Assembly: GCF_009791395.1 (NCBI RefSeq) | Contig: NZ_WSZK01000015.1 | Coordinates: 372,001 to 436,000 of the forward strand | DNA length: 64,000 nucleotides | Direction: 5' to 3' | Source of the DNA: Halomarina oriensis | GTDB taxonomy: Archaea > Halobacteriota > Halobacteria > Halobacteriales > Haloarculaceae | In this document: positions 33,493 through 41,442 of the stretch, in pieces | Position numbering within the stretch: position 1 is the first letter of the stretch | Layout of the letters: every line of letters starts with the position of its first letter | Translations under genes and position numbers: made by a program | The notes under the pieces: model-generated | Told to the model about the DNA's origin: nothing | The model's database searches: none | What the model saw: only the letters and a program-made list of their open reading frames with translations

Positions 33493-34407
33493 CTACGTAT
33501 GGATGCGGTCTGTCGCGAGCGTAGTCGCCAGGCTGGTGAGTTCTTGACGACACGTGAGTTCTTCGAGCCACCGCTCGGGAAGCGTATCTGCACCGAACCG
33601 AGCCCCAGCGACGGCTCCTGCGACTGCTCCGATCGTATCGGCGTCACCGCCCATGTTCACTGCATCCACGATGGCTTCCTCGGCCGATTCGGCAGTCAGT
33701 CCGTGGTACAGTCCTACCTGAAGTGTCGTCACCACGTAGCCCGTGTTCTCGAGATCTTCTGGACCAAGGTCGGTCGATATTCGCTCTAATGCACCGACGA
33801 GTTCGGCAGGGATTTGATCGACGTCTGCGAGCGCCAACGCTAACGGGTTGTTCACTCCGTCGAGTAGCCCAACGATAGTCGTGTTCAATATCGCACAGCC
33901 AGCCGTACACCGTGGGTCGGCGTGCGTGATCTGAGAGGACTGGCGGCTGATCCGTTCGAGGGCCTCCAAGTCGTCGCCGAAGGCGATCGCGTGTGGCGCA
34001 CACCGCATCACGCTCCCGTTGCCCGCGTTTCCACCTTCGTGACTCTGCTCCCAGACACGCTGGCCTGCTTCGTCCCACGGCGTGTCCTGCTTGAGCAACC
34101 GAATCGACTCGGCGGTCATTCCTCCGATATCGAACGGCCCACTGTCGTACCACTCGACGAACCGTCGAGCAATGTCTTCGGGGTCGAACTGACCCCGCTC
34201 TACGAGACTCCGAGCGACACACAGCGCCATCTCGGTGTCGTCGGTGATCGTTCCCGCTGGCTGGCCGTGCGTCCCGTAACCGAGCATCTCCGTCACGATG
34301 CCGTGCTCGCGTTCGATCGACGCCGGGGACATGAACTCGATCGGTCGCCCGAGAGCGTCGCCACAGGCGAGACCCAGTAGTGTCCCAGCCGCTTTGTCGT
34401 CACTCAT
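33493..34407 (-). CDS. ADP-ribosylglycohydrolase (DraG-like)
   Basis: The 304-residue enzyme cleaves ADP-ribose from proteins or nucleic acids. The binuclear metal site is complete: LACGDALGRPIEF, GTITDDTEMALCVARSL (T-D-D-T/S), EGGNAGNGSVMRCAPHAIAF and the late AVNMGGDADTIGAVAGAVAGARFG. The ATG at 34407 starts the family domain (MSDDKAAGTLLGLACGDALG), and a minus-strand TATA-like GCTTACT about 27 bp upstream supports it. It lies inside the low-G+C island between nuclease genes. Its substrate (an ADP-ribosylated target, possibly a toxin product) is unknown, and no ADP-ribosyltransferase is visible nearby. Confidence 0.9.
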   Translation of the reverse strand: MSDDKAAGTLLGLACGDALGRPIEFMSPASIEREHGIVTEMLGYGTHGQPAGTITDDTEMALCVARSLVERGQFDPEDIARRFVEWYDSGPFDIGGMTAESIRLLKQDTPWDEAGQRVWEQSHEGGNAGNGSVMRCAPHAIAFGDDLEALERISRQSSQITHADPRCTAGCAILNTTIVGLLDGVNNPLALALADVDQIPAELVGALERISTDLGPEDLENTGYVVTTLQVGLYHGLTAESAEEAIVDAVNMGGDADTIGAVAGAVAGARFGADTLPERWLEELTCRQELTSLATTLATDRIHT

Positions 34408-34544
34408 GTCCGAGAAGATAACGACACCCGAGTAAGCTCTTGTCCCGACACGATAGAGACGAGGACGCCAAGGAAGGACGAGCACGACCCAGAAGCCCGT
34501 GCCACCCATACGCTTACCACACTCGGTAAAGACAGTCAGCTGTA

Positions 34545-35018
34545 ATGAAACGGCGATGGGTGACCGCATCCAGTACGACGTTCGAGGCGATGGTCAACCC
34601 GATCGCCGCCGCCTGTACCGAGGGGTACGTTCCAGACGAGTACCACATCCTCGTCACGCCGGGGTCGGCCGAGGACGTCGAGCGAGCGATTCCACTGATC
34701 GAGACGACAGTCGCGGAGTACGGCGGCGACCTCGACGTCACCCGCCAGACGCTCGACGACGAGATGGACTTTGCCACCATCGTCGAGTACTATCAGGGTG
34801 CCATCCAGACGACGACAGCGCGTGACGATACAGTCGCCGTCGACGTCACCCCCGGTCGGAAGTTCATGTCCGCGATCGCCTTCCGCGCTGGCTTGCAGTA
34901 CGACGCCACACACGTCTTCTACCTCTTTCTCGACTCGTCGGATTTCTACGGGCAACCCTACGACGCGATTCCACGACCGGCCATCTCGCTCGTCGACTTC
35001 ACGGAGGTGGTCGGGTGA
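34545..35018 (+). CDS. CARF-like (CRISPR-associated Rossmann fold) sensor-domain protein
   Basis: The 157-residue protein is a single Rossmann-like domain. It opens KRRWVTASSTTFEAMVNPIAAAC (beta1 and ligand loop), then DEYHILVTPGSAEDVERAIPLIETTVAEYG (beta2-alpha2), and the most telling part DDTVAVDVTPGRKFMSAIAFRAGLQYDATHVFYLFL (about 96-130). The D-V-T-P-G-R-K-x-M-S set (D100-S109) parallels the D/N-x-T-G-G-T-K-x-M-S motif of Csx1/Card1-type CARF domains, which bind cyclic oligoadenylates. There is no effector domain in the protein itself; the next gene, overlapping by 4 bp (GTGA), encodes a PIN-like nuclease. Domain call is by motif only; ligand unknown. Confidence 0.6.
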   Translation: MKRRWVTASSTTFEAMVNPIAAACTEGYVPDEYHILVTPGSAEDVERAIPLIETTVAEYGGDLDVTRQTLDDEMDFATIVEYYQGAIQTTTARDDTVAVDVTPGRKFMSAIAFRAGLQYDATHVFYLFLDSSDFYGQPYDAIPRPAISLVDFTEVVG

Positions 35019-36055
35019 AGCTCCAACGTCGGCACTTCACGACGCTCCTCAACGCGTTCTACGACGACGGTATCACCACCATCCCGGTCGAGCATCCTTG
35101 CGAAGACGTCGGTGAACTCGTCCGGTTCGAACTCGGCGACTACCGAGGAAGTACGGTTCGATTCACCTGTGGACCGCTCTCGTACGAGGACCGACGAGAC
35201 GACCTCGAGCGCGAGTACGACGAGCAGATCGTCGCCGATCTCCCCGGTCCCGAGCACTACATGCGGGCGCTCGTCGGCGGCGGTGTCGCACCGCTCGAAA
35301 ACCACGACGAGGTCGAGACGTTCGTCCGCCGCTACGGCTATCCCGACCTCGAAGCGGGTCATCGTCCAGTGTTCGCGGGGATCGACACCAACCTCCTCAT
35401 GTGGCGACCGGAGTCACTCCTCTCACTCGATCCCTCGAACGGCGACGAGCGTGGTCGGTCGCCCGTGAACGGATATGCGCTCTCGGCGGGCGTGAAGGAG
35501 GAACTCGACTTCCACTTTCGACACGGCGAGTCGCGTCGGTTGGTGGACGCCTTCGGACCAGAGTTCGACCGACTGAAGGGCCAACCGACGAGCGACAACA
35601 GACAGGGGTTGCTCGGACTGTACGCCTACCGCCAGTTCATGGCCGAGCGTAACGTCGACGTCGTCCCCGGCGAGAAGGGCGACAGAGCGATCGTCGATAG
35701 CTATCACGACTACCACGAGGAGGACCGCAACCGCGTCGTCCTGTTCAGCAACGACCACGGCTTCGTCGACCGCGCTCACGAGTGTGGACTCCTCGCCCAA
35801 CACGTCTCGTTCCCGGTCGACACGCGTCGGAAAGCGACGGTGTCGTGGCGAGACATCGAGGAGACGCTCTACCTGCTCACCGTCGTCTTCGGCGTCCTCG
35901 TCCTCCCGAAGGTCACGCTCTATGGCGCGTGGGAGGGCAAGGACGGCCGGGACTGGCAGACCGAGACGGTCGATGTCGACTGTCGGAGTCCGAAGTACCA
36001 GAGAGAGTTGAAGCGGCGAGAGCGGATCGTCACTGCGTTCGACGCCGCGATGTAG
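35015..36055 (+). CDS. PIN-domain ribonuclease-like protein coupled to the CARF-like gene
   Basis: A 346-residue protein from a GTG start overlapping the previous stop. The N-terminal about 115 residues are unrecognised. From about 118 a PIN-like fold appears: FAGIDTNLLMW (D124, the first PIN acidic residue), a long helical insert, GEKGDRAIVDSYHDY (E220, D223, D228) and RVVLFSNDHGFVDRAHECGL (D247, D252). These acidic residues are in the order expected for a metal-dependent PIN ribonuclease active site. The C-terminus has a hydrophobic stretch (ETLYLLTVVFGVLVLPKVTLYGAW) and a basic tail. Together with the CARF-like partner it may form a ligand-gated RNase. Confidence 0.6.
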   Translation: MKLQRRHFTTLLNAFYDDGITTIPVEHPCEDVGELVRFELGDYRGSTVRFTCGPLSYEDRRDDLEREYDEQIVADLPGPEHYMRALVGGGVAPLENHDEVETFVRRYGYPDLEAGHRPVFAGIDTNLLMWRPESLLSLDPSNGDERGRSPVNGYALSAGVKEELDFHFRHGESRRLVDAFGPEFDRLKGQPTSDNRQGLLGLYAYRQFMAERNVDVVPGEKGDRAIVDSYHDYHEEDRNRVVLFSNDHGFVDRAHECGLLAQHVSFPVDTRRKATVSWRDIEETLYLLTVVFGVLVLPKVTLYGAWEGKDGRDWQTETVDVDCRSPKYQRELKRRERIVTAFDAAM

Positions 36056-36099: not shown

Positions 36100-36345
36100 C
36101 TACTCGTACGCGGCGAGAGACTCGTCGAACGACGCATCGAGGAACTCCGTATCCATACCGTGTGGCTCCTCGGGGTCGAGCAGATACCGCAACAGCCGAT
36201 TCACGTAGACCTCGGCTCGCCGTCGCTTTCCGAGGCCGTATTCGACGACGTTCATCGTCGAGCGAGGCGATCCAGGGCGCTCGGTGATGACTTCCCATCG
36301 CTCACTGAGCGCACGCAGTCTCGGCGTCAGGTCGTCGGGGTCCAT
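36100..36345 (-). pseudogene. Truncated PD-(D/E)XK family protein, N-terminal remnant
   Basis: Only 81 residues remain (MDPDDLTPRLRALSERW...). RRRAEVYVNRLLRYLLDPEEPHGMDTEFLDASF matches the conserved N-terminal block of PDDEXK_4-type nucleases (E-x-x-(h)-N-x-L-L-x-x-L-L-D-P-x-x-x-H-G-x-x-x-x-F-L). That family normally runs several hundred residues with the catalytic D/E-x-K after this block. Here the frame stops, and the region beyond is occupied by the convergent PIN gene, so the catalytic part is lost. A longer start at 36384 is possible. Probably a decayed defence or repair gene. Confidence 0.6.
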
Positions 36346-36413
36346 CGTCTCACTCTCCTCGTCATCTCGACGGATCCGTATCAACTCACCGCCACACGTC
36401 GTTCAGCGACCGC

Positions 36414-37097
36414 TCATCGAGGGTGGATCTCGGTGAGTTCGATAGAGCTACGCCGGCACTCCTCCCTGACGAGATCGAATCGCTGTCGAGCCTTCTCGGT
36501 GCTTCGGTCGTCCGTTTCACCCTGCTGGAACGGGTTCTTGTTCGTCACGACGACGAGATGCCGAGAGTCCGCCCCGTCGAGCGCACCGAGTTTCCGCAGG
36601 TCCGCGGAGAAGTGTGGCCACTCGTCGATATCCGGGTTCTCGAACGCCGCACCGGCAACGTCGACGTTCTTGATGTATTTGAGCTCTATCGCGTGTTCGA
36701 TTGCTCCCGCCGGAAAGTACTTGCTCCCGTCGACGAGTCGGACCGTGAGCACCGGTTCGTCGCTCTCGGGGACGCAGTCGAGGCCGGCGTACTCCGAACT
36801 CGCCTCGGGATCCAAGACGGCCACGTCGAGGCTCGTGTTCCCCACACCGGACGTTCCGAAGTTGACCTCGGCCTGGACGTTGCTGATCTCGTGGGGAGCA
36901 GCGATTCGATCGAGATACTTCCGTTTGTAGCCGGTCACGTCGCCCAGATCGTAGCCTCCACGCGCTCGAATCGACTCACCCATCCGTCTTCGAAGGAGCG
37001 TGAGTAGTCGGGCTTGGAGCGCGGCCTCCACCGTGAAATCGAGCGGTGTCGTCTGAAACTCGGCGTCGAGGTCGTCGATCGCCAACCGGATACTCAT
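36414..37097 (-). CDS. Putative PD-(D/E)XK nuclease-like protein
   Basis: A 227-residue protein starting MSIRLAIDDLDAEF. A possible nuclease core is seen: NVQAEVNFGTSGVGNTSLDVAVLD (E and D), then EHAIELKYIKN (E-L-K), the D...(E/x)-x-K spacing of restriction-like folds. A helix with HLVVVTNKNPFQQ follows, and the tail RRSSIELTEIHPR is basic. I do not recognise a named family. It precedes the truncated PD-(D/E)XK remnant on the same strand. A minus-strand TATA-like ATTTATCC at about 37163-37170 may drive it. Confidence 0.55.
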   Translation of the reverse strand: MSIRLAIDDLDAEFQTTPLDFTVEAALQARLLTLLRRRMGESIRARGGYDLGDVTGYKRKYLDRIAAPHEISNVQAEVNFGTSGVGNTSLDVAVLDPEASSEYAGLDCVPESDEPVLTVRLVDGSKYFPAGAIEHAIELKYIKNVDVAGAAFENPDIDEWPHFSADLRKLGALDGADSRHLVVVTNKNPFQQGETDDRSTEKARQRFDLVREECRRSSIELTEIHPR

Positions 37098-37480
37098 AGT
37101 GGACGGGCACTCGCAACCGGGAGAAGTCACTTCCGAACGACCGATGGTTCGTGGACTTCGGGGATAAATCCGGGAGTCCGCCTCCGGGGCTTCCGGAGCG
37201 GTCTCTGTAGCAGCGTCCCGAGCGGTAGAAGCTCGGAACCACGGGTGGAGTCAGCGGCCGGGAAACTGTCGATCCAACGCGGTGAGAGGCTTCGGATCGA
37301 CACCGCGCGAGGGAAGTAGACGAACCACGGTTTCCGAGGGTTCGTCTCTGAAAAGTCGGATGAGAATACTGAGACCGGGTGCGAGAATCGCCCGTGGTCG
37401 CTCGCTGCGGTCGCTGCGGTCGCTCCCAGATTCGATTTTCTGTGGACACCCGTCGCTCACGAACGTGTTCACGACAGGAG
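37098..37480. other. Gene-free junction between the island and tRNA-His
   Basis: About 380 bp without a believable ORF. It holds a hairpin (arms CCG-C-CTCCGG and CCGGAGCGG, 37178-37201), the partial tRNA-His copy at 37373-37390, and a 9-bp tandem repeat TCGCTGCGG x2 (37402-37419) followed by a partial third unit. It looks like the attachment end of a former integrated element. Confidence 0.5.
37373..37390. repeat. Partial copy of the tRNA-His 3' end (attachment-site-like direct repeat)
   Basis: 17 of 18 bases here match 37481-37498, the last 18 bases of the tRNA-His gene read on the plus strand; the shared 16-base run is CCGGGTGCGAGAATCG. The copy lies 108 bp downstream of the tRNA 3' end, on the side of the low-G+C island. 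Tyrosine-recombinase elements leave such a repeat when they integrate into a tRNA 3' end. Confidence 0.6.
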
Positions 37481-37553: not shown

Positions 37554-38390
37554 GCGCATCCGCTAGTATCCGGCGTCCCTTTGAATACGTTACGACTCGG
37601 GGTTGGGCGTGCCACTCGGTTGCGCGGGAAATACGAAGAGAGAAGCAGTCGGGAGAGCGGCGACCGGCTACTCGACTCGGGTCGGTCGGAGGCACTCGAT
37701 GGCGAGCAGTCGACCGAGAGGTGACACCACGACCGGCGACTCCATCGTCGAGTTCGGCCGAGAAGTCGGGCCGAACGCGCGGTGGTAGAGCGAGTTCACG
37801 ACGAGGGCGTTCACGGGGGGTTCGGCAAACTCCGGCCGACTACCCGGCCGGGCACGCACACCGAGTCCGGAGAACCCCCAGACGACAGCAGGAGCGAACG
37901 CGAAGAGGTCGACCAACTCCGTGGAGTCGACGACCGTGACAGACCCGTGAGCGTCCCGCCGATGGTGGTTTGCTCGATAGTGAAGGAGGCGAGACCGGTA
38001 GATCGAGTCCTCCACCCTCGTCGAACCGGGGTCCGTCGAAGCCCGTTCGAACGGACCGCTCGTGTGCAGGCGAGAGACTTTATGTCGAATGAGCCACTAC
38101 GATTAGACGACGCTTCGTCTGGAGGGCCGAAGCGTCAGCGGGGACCATTTAGAACAGTCGGCCCGGCGGGTCTTTTCTGCCCGCTCGGGCCGGTGTTCTG
38201 TTCGGCGATAGGACCGGCGAGTCACACCCATCTCGGCGGCCGGTGAGTGTCCAGTTCCTCGCTGGTGAACAGCTAAAGCAGGGTCAGCACCAGTCTCCGC
38301 GTTCACGACCACCGTCCGGAGATTGTTGCAACCCACACGTGTTATATTGTTTCAGATAAATTTTTGTAAAAACGCAGACAAGTGTGGAGT
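37554..38390. other. Non-coding stretch with several hairpins, upstream of the DUF7503-like gene
   Basis: About 840 bp have no convincing gene; a 115-codon minus-strand frame (37668-38015) has no recognisable domain. From 38109 to about 38220 there are successive inverted repeats: GACGCTTCG/CGAAGCGTC (38109-38117, 38128-38136); GGCCCGGCGGG with CCCGCTCGGGCC (38160-38170, 38180-38191) around a T-rich loop; and GCCGGT/ACCGGC just after. A structured RNA or terminator cluster is possible. The end (38331-38390) is AT-rich promoter DNA. Confidence 0.4.
38355..38363 (+). promoter_or_regulatory. Probable TATA box of the DUF7503-like small gene
   Basis: GATAAATTT in an AT-rich patch, centred about 32 bp before the ATG at 38391. 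This gives a leader of only a few bases, typical of haloarchaea. Confidence 0.5.
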
Positions 38391-38528
38391 ATGTCCGATA
38401 CCCAATCGGCGTCCGAGGCGTTCGCACAGAACCCAAGCATGATCGGCAACCTGTTCGCGCTGCTCACACTGCGTGACGACTCTATGACGGCGTCGCTAGC
38501 GAACAGCGGCGGTACCACTGGCCCGTAA
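38391..38528 (+). CDS. Small DUF7503-like protein (45 residues)
   Basis: A short ORF starting MSDTQSASEAFAQNPSMIG, then NLFALLTLRDDSMTASLANS and ending GGTTGP. It resembles the tiny haloarchaeal DUF7503 proteins: a polar lead, an N/H-P-x-M-I-G-x-L-F hydrophobic helix, and a short Gly/Thr-rich end closing in G-P. The function of that family is unknown. A TATA-like box precedes it, and its stop lies only 8 bp from the convergent CHAT protease stop. The family recall is moderate, but promoter, composition and position support a real gene. Confidence 0.6.
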   Translation: MSDTQSASEAFAQNPSMIGNLFALLTLRDDSMTASLANSGGTTGP

Positions 38529-38536
38529 GAGCGAGA

Positions 38537-40642
38537 TCATTCGATGAGGTCGGCAGAGACGGACTCGCTCCAAGAAAGCGTCCCATTGACCGTTACTGGC
38601 ACTCGTTCACTCATCGTCAGCAGTTCATCGAGTTCATCCGTCGAGGCGGTCAAGGTGGTGAGGTGCCCCGACCCCAGATGCCGTGTGGTATTGTCTGCGA
38701 GATACGGTGTCACCATCGAGCCGACCGGCCACTGTGACGTTGGATAGGCGAAGTATCCCACCTCGAACGAGTCGGGGCCGGTCCGTTCGATATCGAGTCG
38801 GTTTGCTGCCCCGCTTTTCGTGCTCGTGAGACGCGCGTTACCCGACCCGACGATGACGTACTGCCGCCCCGTGATGGTCTCTCGACCGATGACGGCCAAC
38901 GCCGCGGCCAGCGAGAACCCGCTGTTCAGCAATCGAGCGATCTGTAACCCGACCATCGTTGCGGGGTCGTTCGCCACCTCCTCCAGTGTCACGACGCCAC
39001 CGGTCGCCCCCGCATCGACGAGCGCACGGCCCTGAACGTACGACTGGCACGCGTTGAGGACGAACGCTCGCCCACCGAACGAGTCGAGCGTCCGAACGTC
39101 GAGATGCCCGTCCGCGCACGCCAGTCCGTCCGACGTCGCGTGACCGATGTAGTGGAGCAGGTCGTGGTTCGCTTCGAGCAGCGCACGCGTCTCCGCGACG
39201 GTCTGCTCCTCGTGAATCGTGACGTCCATCTCGACGAGTTCGCGGACGCCGTACAGTTCGCCCACGGAACGCTCTTCGGTCATCTCGGGGGCGTTGGCGA
39301 TGACCTGCACCCGTGTCGGCCCGTTGCCGACGGCGTCGAGTTGGCGGAGGGAGGCGTCGGCGGTCGGAATCGACGCACCGACCGGGACACCGTCGCCGAG
39401 CCAGGCGTGTTCCAGACTGTCGACCGGGGGAGCGCTCACCCGTCGGGGGACGAGGTCCTCGTCCGGCCGGAACGGCTGGACGTTCGTCGGCGGACCCGCA
39501 CCGTCGGCCCGGTAGAAATCCGCGACGCTGTTGCCGATTTCCGTGGCGATGCTAGCTGGCTCGCTCGGAGTGGTCGTGATGGGTCGGACGTGTGCGAGGT
39601 CGTGCGCCGCGAACGGGAGGTACGGTGCGTGCTGTGGGTCCGGCGCGACGTCGGCGGTCAGCTTCCACGTCGGGACGAGGTCGGCGACGTCCTCCCACGG
39701 CACTGCGAGGGCGGCGTCGACCTGCTCGGGGAGCGAGCGGTCGTACAGCGCCGGGAAGTCGACGTCGACACGTCGTTCGAGCACCCGCCGCTCGTGGAGG
39801 TCGACCGGGAACAGCCCTTCCGTCCGTGTGACGCAGTCGAACAGGAACAGCCGTTCGAGCGTTCGCTGGACGCCGGTACTCATCCCGTCGGGATGCGTCA
39901 GGGCGTGCTCAGTTCCATCCGCGACTAGCGCCGGCTTCGGTCCCGGACGAACCTGTGCGTTCAGATAGTACGCCAAGGATGCGACCGAGAAGACGTGGCC
40001 GTACTCGACCGGGACCTCGATGTGGACGGGTGTGTCACGCCGCTCCAGCCCCTCGGGGGCGCTGAACGGGCCCGGTTCGACGTCGACGAGCGGCGGGCAC
40101 CCGCGCAGCGACGGCCAGGCGCGTTCGGGGGAGGTGGTCTTGAGCGCCGACCCGAAACACGAGACGGCTCGCATCAGGTCTCGGGGACGCTCGCTCGTGT
40201 GGACGGTCGCCTGCGGACGAGTGTGGAGGGACCGAAGCCCGATCTGAACGCCGCCACCCGGCAGTCGGACGATGCGGTGGCCGTCGTCGACGGTCGATTC
40301 GATCGGGCCGTCGACGCGACAGTAACACTTCACCCCGAGGGATTCGATCTGCACGAGATACTCGCCGTCGGGCATCGTGACCGCCTCGCGGTTGGTCGCC
40401 GCTTCGAGGAGTTCCCCCTCCGTCGTGCGGACGTACAGTTCACACAGTATCGGCAGAACGAGTTCGTGACACACGACGTCGACCGCCGTCTCGACCGGAA
40501 ACGCGAACCGCTCGACCGACACCGCTCGTGGCGAGACCGGTCGGTCGGTGCGGACGACGAGGTCGACGCCCTCGGCGGGGTCCGCGAGGCGAATACCAGT
40601 GGGCGTCTCGACCGCAGCGATCGAGGGGCCAGACGGTGTCAT
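38537..40642 (-). CDS. CHAT-domain (caspase-like) cysteine protease
   Basis: A 701-residue protein. The first about 430 residues are beta-rich and unrecognised. Residues about 440-620 form a CHAT peptidase: RVQVIANAPEMTEERSVGELYGVRELVEMDVTIHEEQ, the catalytic His in DLLHYIGHATSDG (about H501), the catalytic Cys in FVLNACQSYVQGRALVDAGATGGV (about C532), and the closing LARLLNSGF-type helix with YVIVGSGNARLT. The dyad is intact. CHAT proteases act as regulated, gasdermin- or partner-cleaving enzymes in several bacterial immune systems and in other signalling roles. It begins 30 bp after the DUF7504-like gene on the same strand, so they are cotranscribed. Confidence 0.82.
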   Translation of the reverse strand: MTPSGPSIAAVETPTGIRLADPAEGVDLVVRTDRPVSPRAVSVERFAFPVETAVDVVCHELVLPILCELYVRTTEGELLEAATNREAVTMPDGEYLVQIESLGVKCYCRVDGPIESTVDDGHRIVRLPGGGVQIGLRSLHTRPQATVHTSERPRDLMRAVSCFGSALKTTSPERAWPSLRGCPPLVDVEPGPFSAPEGLERRDTPVHIEVPVEYGHVFSVASLAYYLNAQVRPGPKPALVADGTEHALTHPDGMSTGVQRTLERLFLFDCVTRTEGLFPVDLHERRVLERRVDVDFPALYDRSLPEQVDAALAVPWEDVADLVPTWKLTADVAPDPQHAPYLPFAAHDLAHVRPITTTPSEPASIATEIGNSVADFYRADGAGPPTNVQPFRPDEDLVPRRVSAPPVDSLEHAWLGDGVPVGASIPTADASLRQLDAVGNGPTRVQVIANAPEMTEERSVGELYGVRELVEMDVTIHEEQTVAETRALLEANHDLLHYIGHATSDGLACADGHLDVRTLDSFGGRAFVLNACQSYVQGRALVDAGATGGVVTLEEVANDPATMVGLQIARLLNSGFSLAAALAVIGRETITGRQYVIVGSGNARLTSTKSGAANRLDIERTGPDSFEVGYFAYPTSQWPVGSMVTPYLADNTTRHLGSGHLTTLTASTDELDELLTMSERVPVTVNGTLSWSESVSADLIE

Positions 40643-40672
40643 GCGTACGTCGGTGTCGGAACAGCGTCGGCC

Positions 40673-41410
40673 TCAGCGGTCGAGCGGGAGCCATCCCGAG
40701 GTCTCACCGTGGTCGAGGAGGTGCCACGACTGTTCCGGTTCGCTCTCCGGTCGGTCACGCAGTCGGATATGTATATCGACGGTTGGTAACAGTGCATCGA
40801 CCAGTGGGTCCGACGACGGAATCGGGAGCAGGAAGTGTGCGTATCCTCGGGAGCGAGCGACCTCGTCACCGACGATTCGGACGAACCGTCGGACCGCTGG
40901 ACGGGGGTGTTCGTCGAGGAGTGGCCGGAGTGTCACGACACCGACGCGCAGTGCGGCCGGTCGAACGCCGTCGGCGCGTTCACGGTGGGCGGCGACGACG
41001 TCGACGAGTGCGGCCCGGAGGTCGACGAGTGGTGTCCGCTCGCGTTCGAACACCGCGTCGGTCTCTCCGGATACGGCCACGTTCGTCGACGCGCTACCCG
41101 ACGAGGCGGCCGTCGAACCGTCTCGGACGCTCCGGTATCGGACGAGACGCGTTCCGCCGTCCGCAGCGGCGGCCTCGGGGACGTGTTCGGCCACTCGCGT
41201 GTCGCCGACGTCGACGACTGCGAGGGTCCGTTCGCGGCCGGCCGCTTCCGGGCCGAGAAGCAACCGGTTCTGGAGCGCCACGACCGACCGGTCGACGGCA
41301 CCCGTGACCAGAATCCGACAGCCCTGCCGCTTGTGTTCCGCGAGGAGGTCCTGGAACCGCCGCGGACCGCGGGGGCGCTCACCCGAGTCCGACGGCGACC
41401 GATTAGTCAT
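40673..41410 (-). CDS. DUF7504-like protein, CHAT operon partner
   Basis: A 245-residue protein starting MTNRSPSDSGERPRG. PRRFQDLLAEHKRQGCRILVTGAVDRSVVALQNRLLLGPE resembles the haloarchaeal DUF7504 family. It looks like a RecA/KaiC-type first strand and loop (ILVTGAV) but has no G-K-(S/T), so nucleotide hydrolysis is unlikely. Later strands TLAVVDVGD, RVGVVTLRPLLDE and YAHFLLPIPSSDPLVDALLPTVDIHIRLR fit a RecA-like sheet. The ATG at 41410 sits about 27 bp after a strong TATA box, so the transcript is leaderless and earlier in-frame codons are excluded. Role unknown; coupling with CHAT suggests a sensor or adaptor. Confidence 0.68.
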   Translation of the reverse strand: MTNRSPSDSGERPRGPRRFQDLLAEHKRQGCRILVTGAVDRSVVALQNRLLLGPEAAGRERTLAVVDVGDTRVAEHVPEAAAADGGTRLVRYRSVRDGSTAASSGSASTNVAVSGETDAVFERERTPLVDLRAALVDVVAAHRERADGVRPAALRVGVVTLRPLLDEHPRPAVRRFVRIVGDEVARSRGYAHFLLPIPSSDPLVDALLPTVDIHIRLRDRPESEPEQSWHLLDHGETSGWLPLDR

Positions 41411-41432
41411 TGGAGAGTAATCCTTTTCAACC

Positions 41433-41442
41433 AATATAAATC
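41433..41442 (-). promoter_or_regulatory. Strong TATA box of the DUF7504-CHAT operon
   Basis: The minus strand reads GATTTATATT, the best TATA match in the window, centred about 27 bp before the ATG at 41410. Transcription should start at or next to that ATG. Confidence 0.7.

Follow-up and report, generated by a model that had tools for sequence, protein, structure and literature searches.

Divergent CHAT proteases of haloarchaea are linked to a convergent micropeptide gene with a conserved Gly-Pro end: a candidate peptide-and-protease partnership

Background

The described proteases closest to the one analyzed here are SAVED-CHAT, Craspase (TPR-CHAT/Csx29) and separase, which have a caspase-like fold with a His and a Cys at the expected places. 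We have studied a divergent CHAT gene of the archaeon Halomarina oriensis, which is located together with the genes for a KaiC-like protein and for a micropeptide in a stretch of 64,000 nucleotides (contig NZ_WSZK01000015.1, positions 372,001 to 436,000; the whole stretch is referred to as the window). The haloarchaeal CHAT shares the fold and the two residues with these systems, but it differs from them in having no SAVED, TPR or CRISPR partner, in its N-terminal domains, and in its micropeptide partner. The micropeptides and the KaiC-like protein belong to the uncharacterised Pfam families DUF7503 (PF24335) and DUF7504 (PF24336), respectively, for which we found no literature. The association with CHAT, the C-terminal Gly-Pro of the micropeptides, and the helix-less and AKRVSTYGGP relatives described below are all missed by the DUF7503 model.

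A second likeness is to RRNPP signalling (Rap-Phr, PlcR-PapR, AimR-AimP), where a micro-gene of 40-50 codons likewise lies beside its partner. The export-like leader and the short C-terminal peptide encoded there, with a tail that varies and a leader that is kept, may have a counterpart in the haloarchaeal micropeptides, in which A-x-A-like sites are enriched but helix-less copies also occur. In contrast to RRNPP systems, the haloarchaeal pair has a caspase-fold protease rather than a TPR receptor as partner, its genes are convergent, and it is archaeal.

Linkage of CHAT and micropeptide genes across haloarchaea

In the genome that contains the window and in 60 relatives, 75 of 78 DUF7503-type genes, recognised with a profile that we built from family members themselves, are convergent to a CHAT gene and lie within 600 bp of its stop; the median gap between CHAT and DUF7503-type matches is approximately 20 bp. 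Nearly all of 80 named haloarchaeal CHAT loci, which represent many genera, carry a DUF7503-type gene. The earlier note on this DNA, which was made from the sequence without database searches, had proposed a compact haloarchaeal module, and this co-occurrence bears out the proposal. Three DUF7503-type genes have no directly adjoining CHAT (L176, 4217-4348; L174, 3437-3568; L175, 2576-2716); two of them have a CHAT within about 2.2 kb, and L176 has none in its 8.5 kb.

We placed 144 CHATs in a tree, and 116 of them are accompanied by a DUF7503-type gene. One clade of 11 sequences is devoid of any DUF7503 match, and all others form a single supported clade (133 sequences, of which 17 are exceptions). 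Presence and absence of the DUF7503-type gene require 12 label changes on this tree, compared to 26 when labels are shuffled, and nearly all changes fall within the clade of 133. This comparison shows that CHAT and micropeptide were co-inherited across many duplications. A single origin of the DUF7503-type gene is compatible with the tree, but we do not claim it, as the changes inside the clade mix real loss with unrecognised copies.

The CHAT family was found in most haloarchaeal genomes searched. In a sample of the phylum, DUF7503-type genes were present in 44 of about 53 Halobacteriales genomes and in none of about 240 others, four of which contain distant CHAT relatives. These four genomes (G067, G076, G086 and G095; E 1e-61 to 1e-67), all from one Halobacteriota family outside the Halobacteriales (f25), have no DUF7503-type match. 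As judged from these distributions, the link between CHAT and micropeptide looks obligate, and looks like an undescribed peptide-and-protease partnership.

The conserved C-terminus of the micropeptides

Of 109 distinct micropeptide sequences of 41-49 amino acids, 103 end in Gly-Pro. Upstream of this end come five or six residues under little constraint, then an Ala-rich A/V-x-A stretch, a hydrophobic segment, and Pro-Lys/Arg. Little information is carried by tail positions -3 to -8, whereas the final Gly and Pro are kept at the protein level: their codons vary freely, every codon combination being used, and the proportions of nonsynonymous and synonymous differences (pN and pS) at these positions are 0 and 0.65, respectively. 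An A/V/T-x-A-like site is found 7-10 residues from the end in 95 of 103 micropeptides (mean of shuffled sequences 63, maximum 77), and the residue directly after the invariant Pro is Lys or Arg in 113 of 116. Upstream of the 109 homologous genes there is an AT-rich block at about -28 to -70, with a TATA-like box approximately 30 nt before the ATG. By this comparison, the strictest constraint within the micropeptide is on its very C-terminus (Gly-Pro-COOH) and not on the helix. At loci L237-L240, L038, L047, L103 and L129 the micropeptide has an ...NGGSI-like end without Gly-Pro, as if the tail had been shortened.

Two further patterns did not hold up. The tail gave a pN/pS of 0.41, compared to 0.17-0.30 elsewhere, but we do not rely on this as a sign of more rapid evolution, as the pairs had been chosen by similarity of the remainder. 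Covariation of the micropeptide Lys/Arg with a pocket residue of CHAT (A451 in the window) is unsupported, as only three peptides are without Lys/Arg and D451 is still present in the CHATs of two of these.

The Gly-Pro tail also occurs where the rest of the micropeptide differs. Re-examination of CHATs without DUF7503 match revealed, for several of them, a micro-open reading frame (ORF) in the same place that encodes no hydrophobic helix but a Gly-Pro end. In a Haloplanus metagenome-assembled genome (L116, 3727-3882) this micropeptide, MSDSDSQTVAPTSETEQRIITADGNGGAVSGPYNADGNGGAVSGP, carries the tail unit ADGNGGAVSGP twice in tandem, has no helix, and retains the AT-rich promoter; the helix-less copy of Halococcus thailandensis (L108) ends in ...ASACTYSGP, and L115 and others likewise keep Gly-Pro. 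A second CHAT clade, which has no DUF7503 matches and at most of its loci (approximately 30; L054, L181-L189, L191-L192, L204-L231) adjoins TbsP, a haloarchaeal regulator of transcription, shows at many loci micro-ORFs with unrelated leaders in the same place, which end in AK[RG][VI]S[TS]Y[GSR]GP, many of them in AKRVSTYGGP. Since these ends differ by synonymous codons and the stop codons differ as well, conservation is at the level of the peptide rather than of the DNA; a TATA box precedes most of these ORFs. Among CHATs without DUF7503 match, 7 of 28 and 13 of 29 have a convergent ORF ending in Gly-Pro. Of 595 unrelated genes from these loci, only 5 have such an ORF. Many of the positives come from one family (f7) and are thus not independent. 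By this sequence comparison, the Gly-Pro tail survives replacement or loss of the remaining micropeptide. The earlier note had seen the point of the micropeptide in its helix, a view that is at odds with the persistence of the tail where the helix was lost.

The micropeptide of the window is an unusual representative. It scores below the DUF7503 cut-off of 27 (22.5 bits, E 8.7e-5), which is exceeded by its paralogues in the same genome (C7:32744 and C8:43076), and reaches 54.8 bits with our own profile, the alignment of which included this copy. Its homology to DUF7503 is therefore assigned by position, the Gly-Pro end and our profile. The residues RDD interrupt its hydrophobic segment, the best 19-residue hydropathy of which is 0.79 compared to a median of 1.67 in the family, and Ser occupies the position after the invariant Pro where Lys or Arg is found in nearly all relatives. 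The description as hydrophobic and helix-bearing is thus true of the family but not of the copy for which it had been given.

The CHAT protease

The window CHAT contains the putative catalytic His501 within YIGHAT and Cys532 within NACQS, as noticed earlier. Loss of this dyad in most homologues would have spoken against the proposed module; however, the first 35 homologues all have both residues, and of 144 homologues only one does not retain them. With 19.9 bits the protein falls below the cut-off of 24 of the Pfam CHAT model (PF12770), which is matched at E<=0.01 by only 2 of 25 homologues and gave no match in a profile search of the Haloferax volcanii control genome. An AlphaFold model built from 25 homologues (mean predicted local distance difference test score, pLDDT, of 81) matches SAVED-CHAT (8tl0, E 3e-7) in Foldseek, and also separase, gingipain RgpB and Craspase. 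It consists of an N-terminal beta domain (approximately residues 1-150), an alpha/beta domain (183-354), the protease domain (409-600) and a C-terminal beta domain (612-691). The region of about 430 residues N-terminal of the protease domain thus comprises the beta domain, the alpha/beta domain and a low-confidence linker, and neither the model nor a domain search revealed TPRs in it. Because the sequence scores below the PF12770 cut-off, the assignment to the family is based on fold and dyad, by which the protein is a divergent clan CD member with a caspase fold and a predicted protease.

The DUF7504 protein

The DUF7504 protein of the window is a clear family member (PF24336, E 9e-34, 118 bits, cut-off 27). 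Its structural model (pLDDT 87) matches the CI domain of KaiC (E about 1e-6), and a Walker A motif was found in none of 47 DUF7504 members. DUF7504 is thus a pseudo-ATPase, an inactive KaiC-like protein, in agreement with the earlier description as RecA-like without Walker A. A DUF7504 gene accompanies 48 of 107 CHATs, located directly before CHAT in 38 cases and beyond the micropeptide gene in 10, and to this extent it is a partner as proposed; the family occurs in 58 of 60 genomes with up to 15 copies, however, and most of its genes are located away from CHAT. DUF7504 is thus a frequent but non-defining partner. On a plasmid of Halostagnicola larsenii (L237, 1016-2398) the DUF7504 protein encoded directly upstream of CHAT forms a fusion with a HalOD1 output domain. 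The sensor role proposed for DUF7504 would fit this fusion and the inactive KaiC fold predicted by the model.

Organization of the locus and its paralogues

The three genes have the layout and positions given by the earlier note (Table 1). Between the facing stops of the micropeptide gene and CHAT there are 8 bp; DUF7504 precedes CHAT on the same strand with a spacing of 30 bp. The box TTTATATTGG is located 21-30 nt 5' of the DUF7504 ATG, and a TATA-like AAATTTTTGT about 24-33 nt 5' of the micropeptide ATG. From the spacing only, we infer that DUF7504 and CHAT are cotranscribed and that expression is leaderless. A scan for bacterial-type promoters found none, as expected for an archaeon.

Table 1. 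Position of genes, catalytic codons and promoter-like elements in the window
Feature	Position	Strand
CHAT protease gene, 701 aa	38537..40642	-
Codon of catalytic His501 of CHAT	39140..39142	-
Codon of catalytic Cys532 of CHAT	39047..39049	-
DUF7504 gene, 245 aa, product with KaiC/RecA-like fold that lacks Walker A	40673..41410	-
DUF7503-type micropeptide gene, 45 aa, end ...NSGGTTGP, degenerate copy	38391..38528	+
Codons for C-terminal tail NSGGTTGP including Gly-Pro end	38502..38525	+
Promoter-like AT-rich stretch 5' of micropeptide gene	38341..38372	+
TATA box TTTATATTGG of DUF7504-CHAT unit	41431..41440	-

This genome contains seven CHAT matches at six loci. At four loci, of which two are on C7 (one of them in the window), one on C8 and one on C30, CHAT is preceded by DUF7504 and followed by a DUF7503-type gene in convergent orientation; the locus on C18 has the micropeptide gene but no DUF7504, and the one on C33 has neither. 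The window module is thus one of several paralogous copies within one genome.

Genomic neighbourhood

Response regulator genes of two families recur downstream of CHAT, at 15 and 11 named loci, respectively (e.g. L060, 8128-8757; L065, 7698-8639). Together with TbsP and the HalOD1-DUF7504 fusion, this setting points to signalling rather than defence. PADLOC gave no match for the CHAT, DUF7504 or micropeptide of the window. An origin from phages or viruses was considered and rejected, as there are no relatives in phage records and none was confirmed in a scan of viral contigs.

The window contains a CARF gene (34545-36055, plus strand, for the pair; PADLOC CARF_m1, E 1e-53) directly followed by a CARF-PIN match (E 3e-28), apparently a split pair. 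This pair is about 2.3 kb away from the module and outside the recurring neighbourhood, and with no PADLOC match for the module itself we rejected a defence island. An ORF that resembles ADP-ribosylglycohydrolases by eye (33493-34569, minus strand) adjoins the pair. Two adjacent ORFs of unknown nature follow at 36100-37130 (minus strand), the smaller of which is a weak partial match to the PADLOC candidate PDC-S26 (E 7e-5) and perhaps a broken defence gene.

Possible functions of the CHAT-micropeptide pair

The reading that we favour, if tentatively, is that of a dedicated caspase-micropeptide pair in which the C-terminal peptide, preceded in most cases by an export-like leader, would be the working part. 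This peptide of approximately 8-17 residues would be a dedicated ligand or regulator and act on, or be made by, its cognate CHAT. The leader of most copies, which comprises n-region, Pro-Lys/Arg, hydrophobic stretch and A-x-A, resembles an export signal or a membrane anchor, and the peptide would therefore probably be displayed at the membrane or outside it. Copies without leader would act intracellularly, and DUF7504, where present, would probably link CHAT to the state of the cell as an adaptor or regulator. A bolder proposal, which we consider rather unlikely, is archaeal peptide signalling with the caspase-fold protease as dedicated receptor, where a mostly exported peptide ending in Gly-Pro would switch its cognate CHAT and many such pairs would operate in parallel in one cell. 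Several points weigh against a dedicated pair with a working C-terminal peptide. The linkage counts are phylogenetically non-independent, with related genomes counted repeatedly, and for several CHATs no micropeptide could be recognised. Some micropeptides of Natrialbaceae end in ...NGGSIY, ...NGGAIS or ...GGI and thus without Gly-Pro, and the window micropeptide is a degenerate outlier that may be decaying. Moreover, the membrane would separate an exported peptide from a cytosolic protease, so that the peptide would have to be re-imported or to act via its N-terminal part.

The main rival, to which we give a limited chance, is that the micropeptide is a substrate of CHAT, cut after Pro-Lys/Arg at the membrane boundary, or between AKR and VSTYGGP, by which a membrane peptide or the tail would be released or destroyed. 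Many clan CD proteases cleave after Arg or Lys, and candidate sites would be provided by the Lys or Arg right after the invariant Pro (113/116) and by the basic pair just before the conserved octapeptide of the second clade; in addition, the micropeptide is nearly never found without CHAT, whereas CHAT can lack the micropeptide. However, membrane topology would explain the Lys or Arg equally well, the helix-less copies of L116 and L108 do not have it, the window pair combines a Ser at this place with an intact dyad, and a substrate would have no need for an exact C-terminus. Another, improbable, explanation is that the micropeptide is a membrane anchor or inhibitor that keeps CHAT inactive at the membrane via the N-terminal part, in a securin- or pseudosubstrate-like manner: a single hydrophobic helix with a basic flank predicts an N-inside orientation, and conservation of the N-terminus and the helix exceeds what a plain signal peptide needs. 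Against this stands the loss or replacement of helix and N-terminus in some lineages that have retained the tail.

The micropeptide is also small and hydrophobic with its own strong promoter-like region, and CHAT proteases serve as effectors in several bacterial conflict systems; both would suit a membrane toxin controlled by CHAT and DUF7504 in a cell-suicide or antiviral system. The persistence of helix-less copies shows that the micropeptide can do without its helix, which makes such a toxin less likely. The lack of PADLOC matches, the absence from phage records, the lack of confirmed relatives in viral contigs, the signalling genes as neighbours, and the fixed chromosomal neighbourhood of one deeply branching CHAT clade beside TbsP argue in the same direction, and the chance of this explanation being correct is small. 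The earlier note had suggested a toxin or a substrate; nothing in our data favours the toxin or supports a role in defence. Finally, the three genes might be neighbours by descent alone without joint function, consistent with DUF7504 genes being mostly elsewhere and with the absence of the micropeptide at some CHATs, but convergent adjacency across paralogues, plasmids and tens of genera, compared to 0.8% for other genes, renders this highly improbable.

Conclusions

A strong caspase-like activity of haloarchaea has been described in Haloferax volcanii as cysteine-protease-like and inhibited by zVAD-fmk, with a preference for Asp at P1; no gene was assigned to it because homologues had not been recognised ('lack of gene homologues'; PMC3615174). 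This activity and the CHATs described here are both haloarchaeal and cysteine-protease-like, whereas the Asp preference is reported only for the activity. The CHAT module is present in three other Haloferax species (L133-L135). For H. volcanii itself we noted no more of the module than DUF7504 and, probably, DUF7503, and we found no literature on CHAT in Haloferax. Because members of the CHAT family have a caspase fold, are widespread and are nearly invisible to the standard CHAT model, they are candidates for this orphan activity, and we hypothesize that the family is behind it. The family thus provides named, deletable candidate genes for haloarchaeal caspase-like activity. A caspase-like enzyme controlled by a facing micropeptide that is kept for its exact C-terminus would, if true, be unusual, and the CHAT-micropeptide pair renders archaeal peptide signalling testable.

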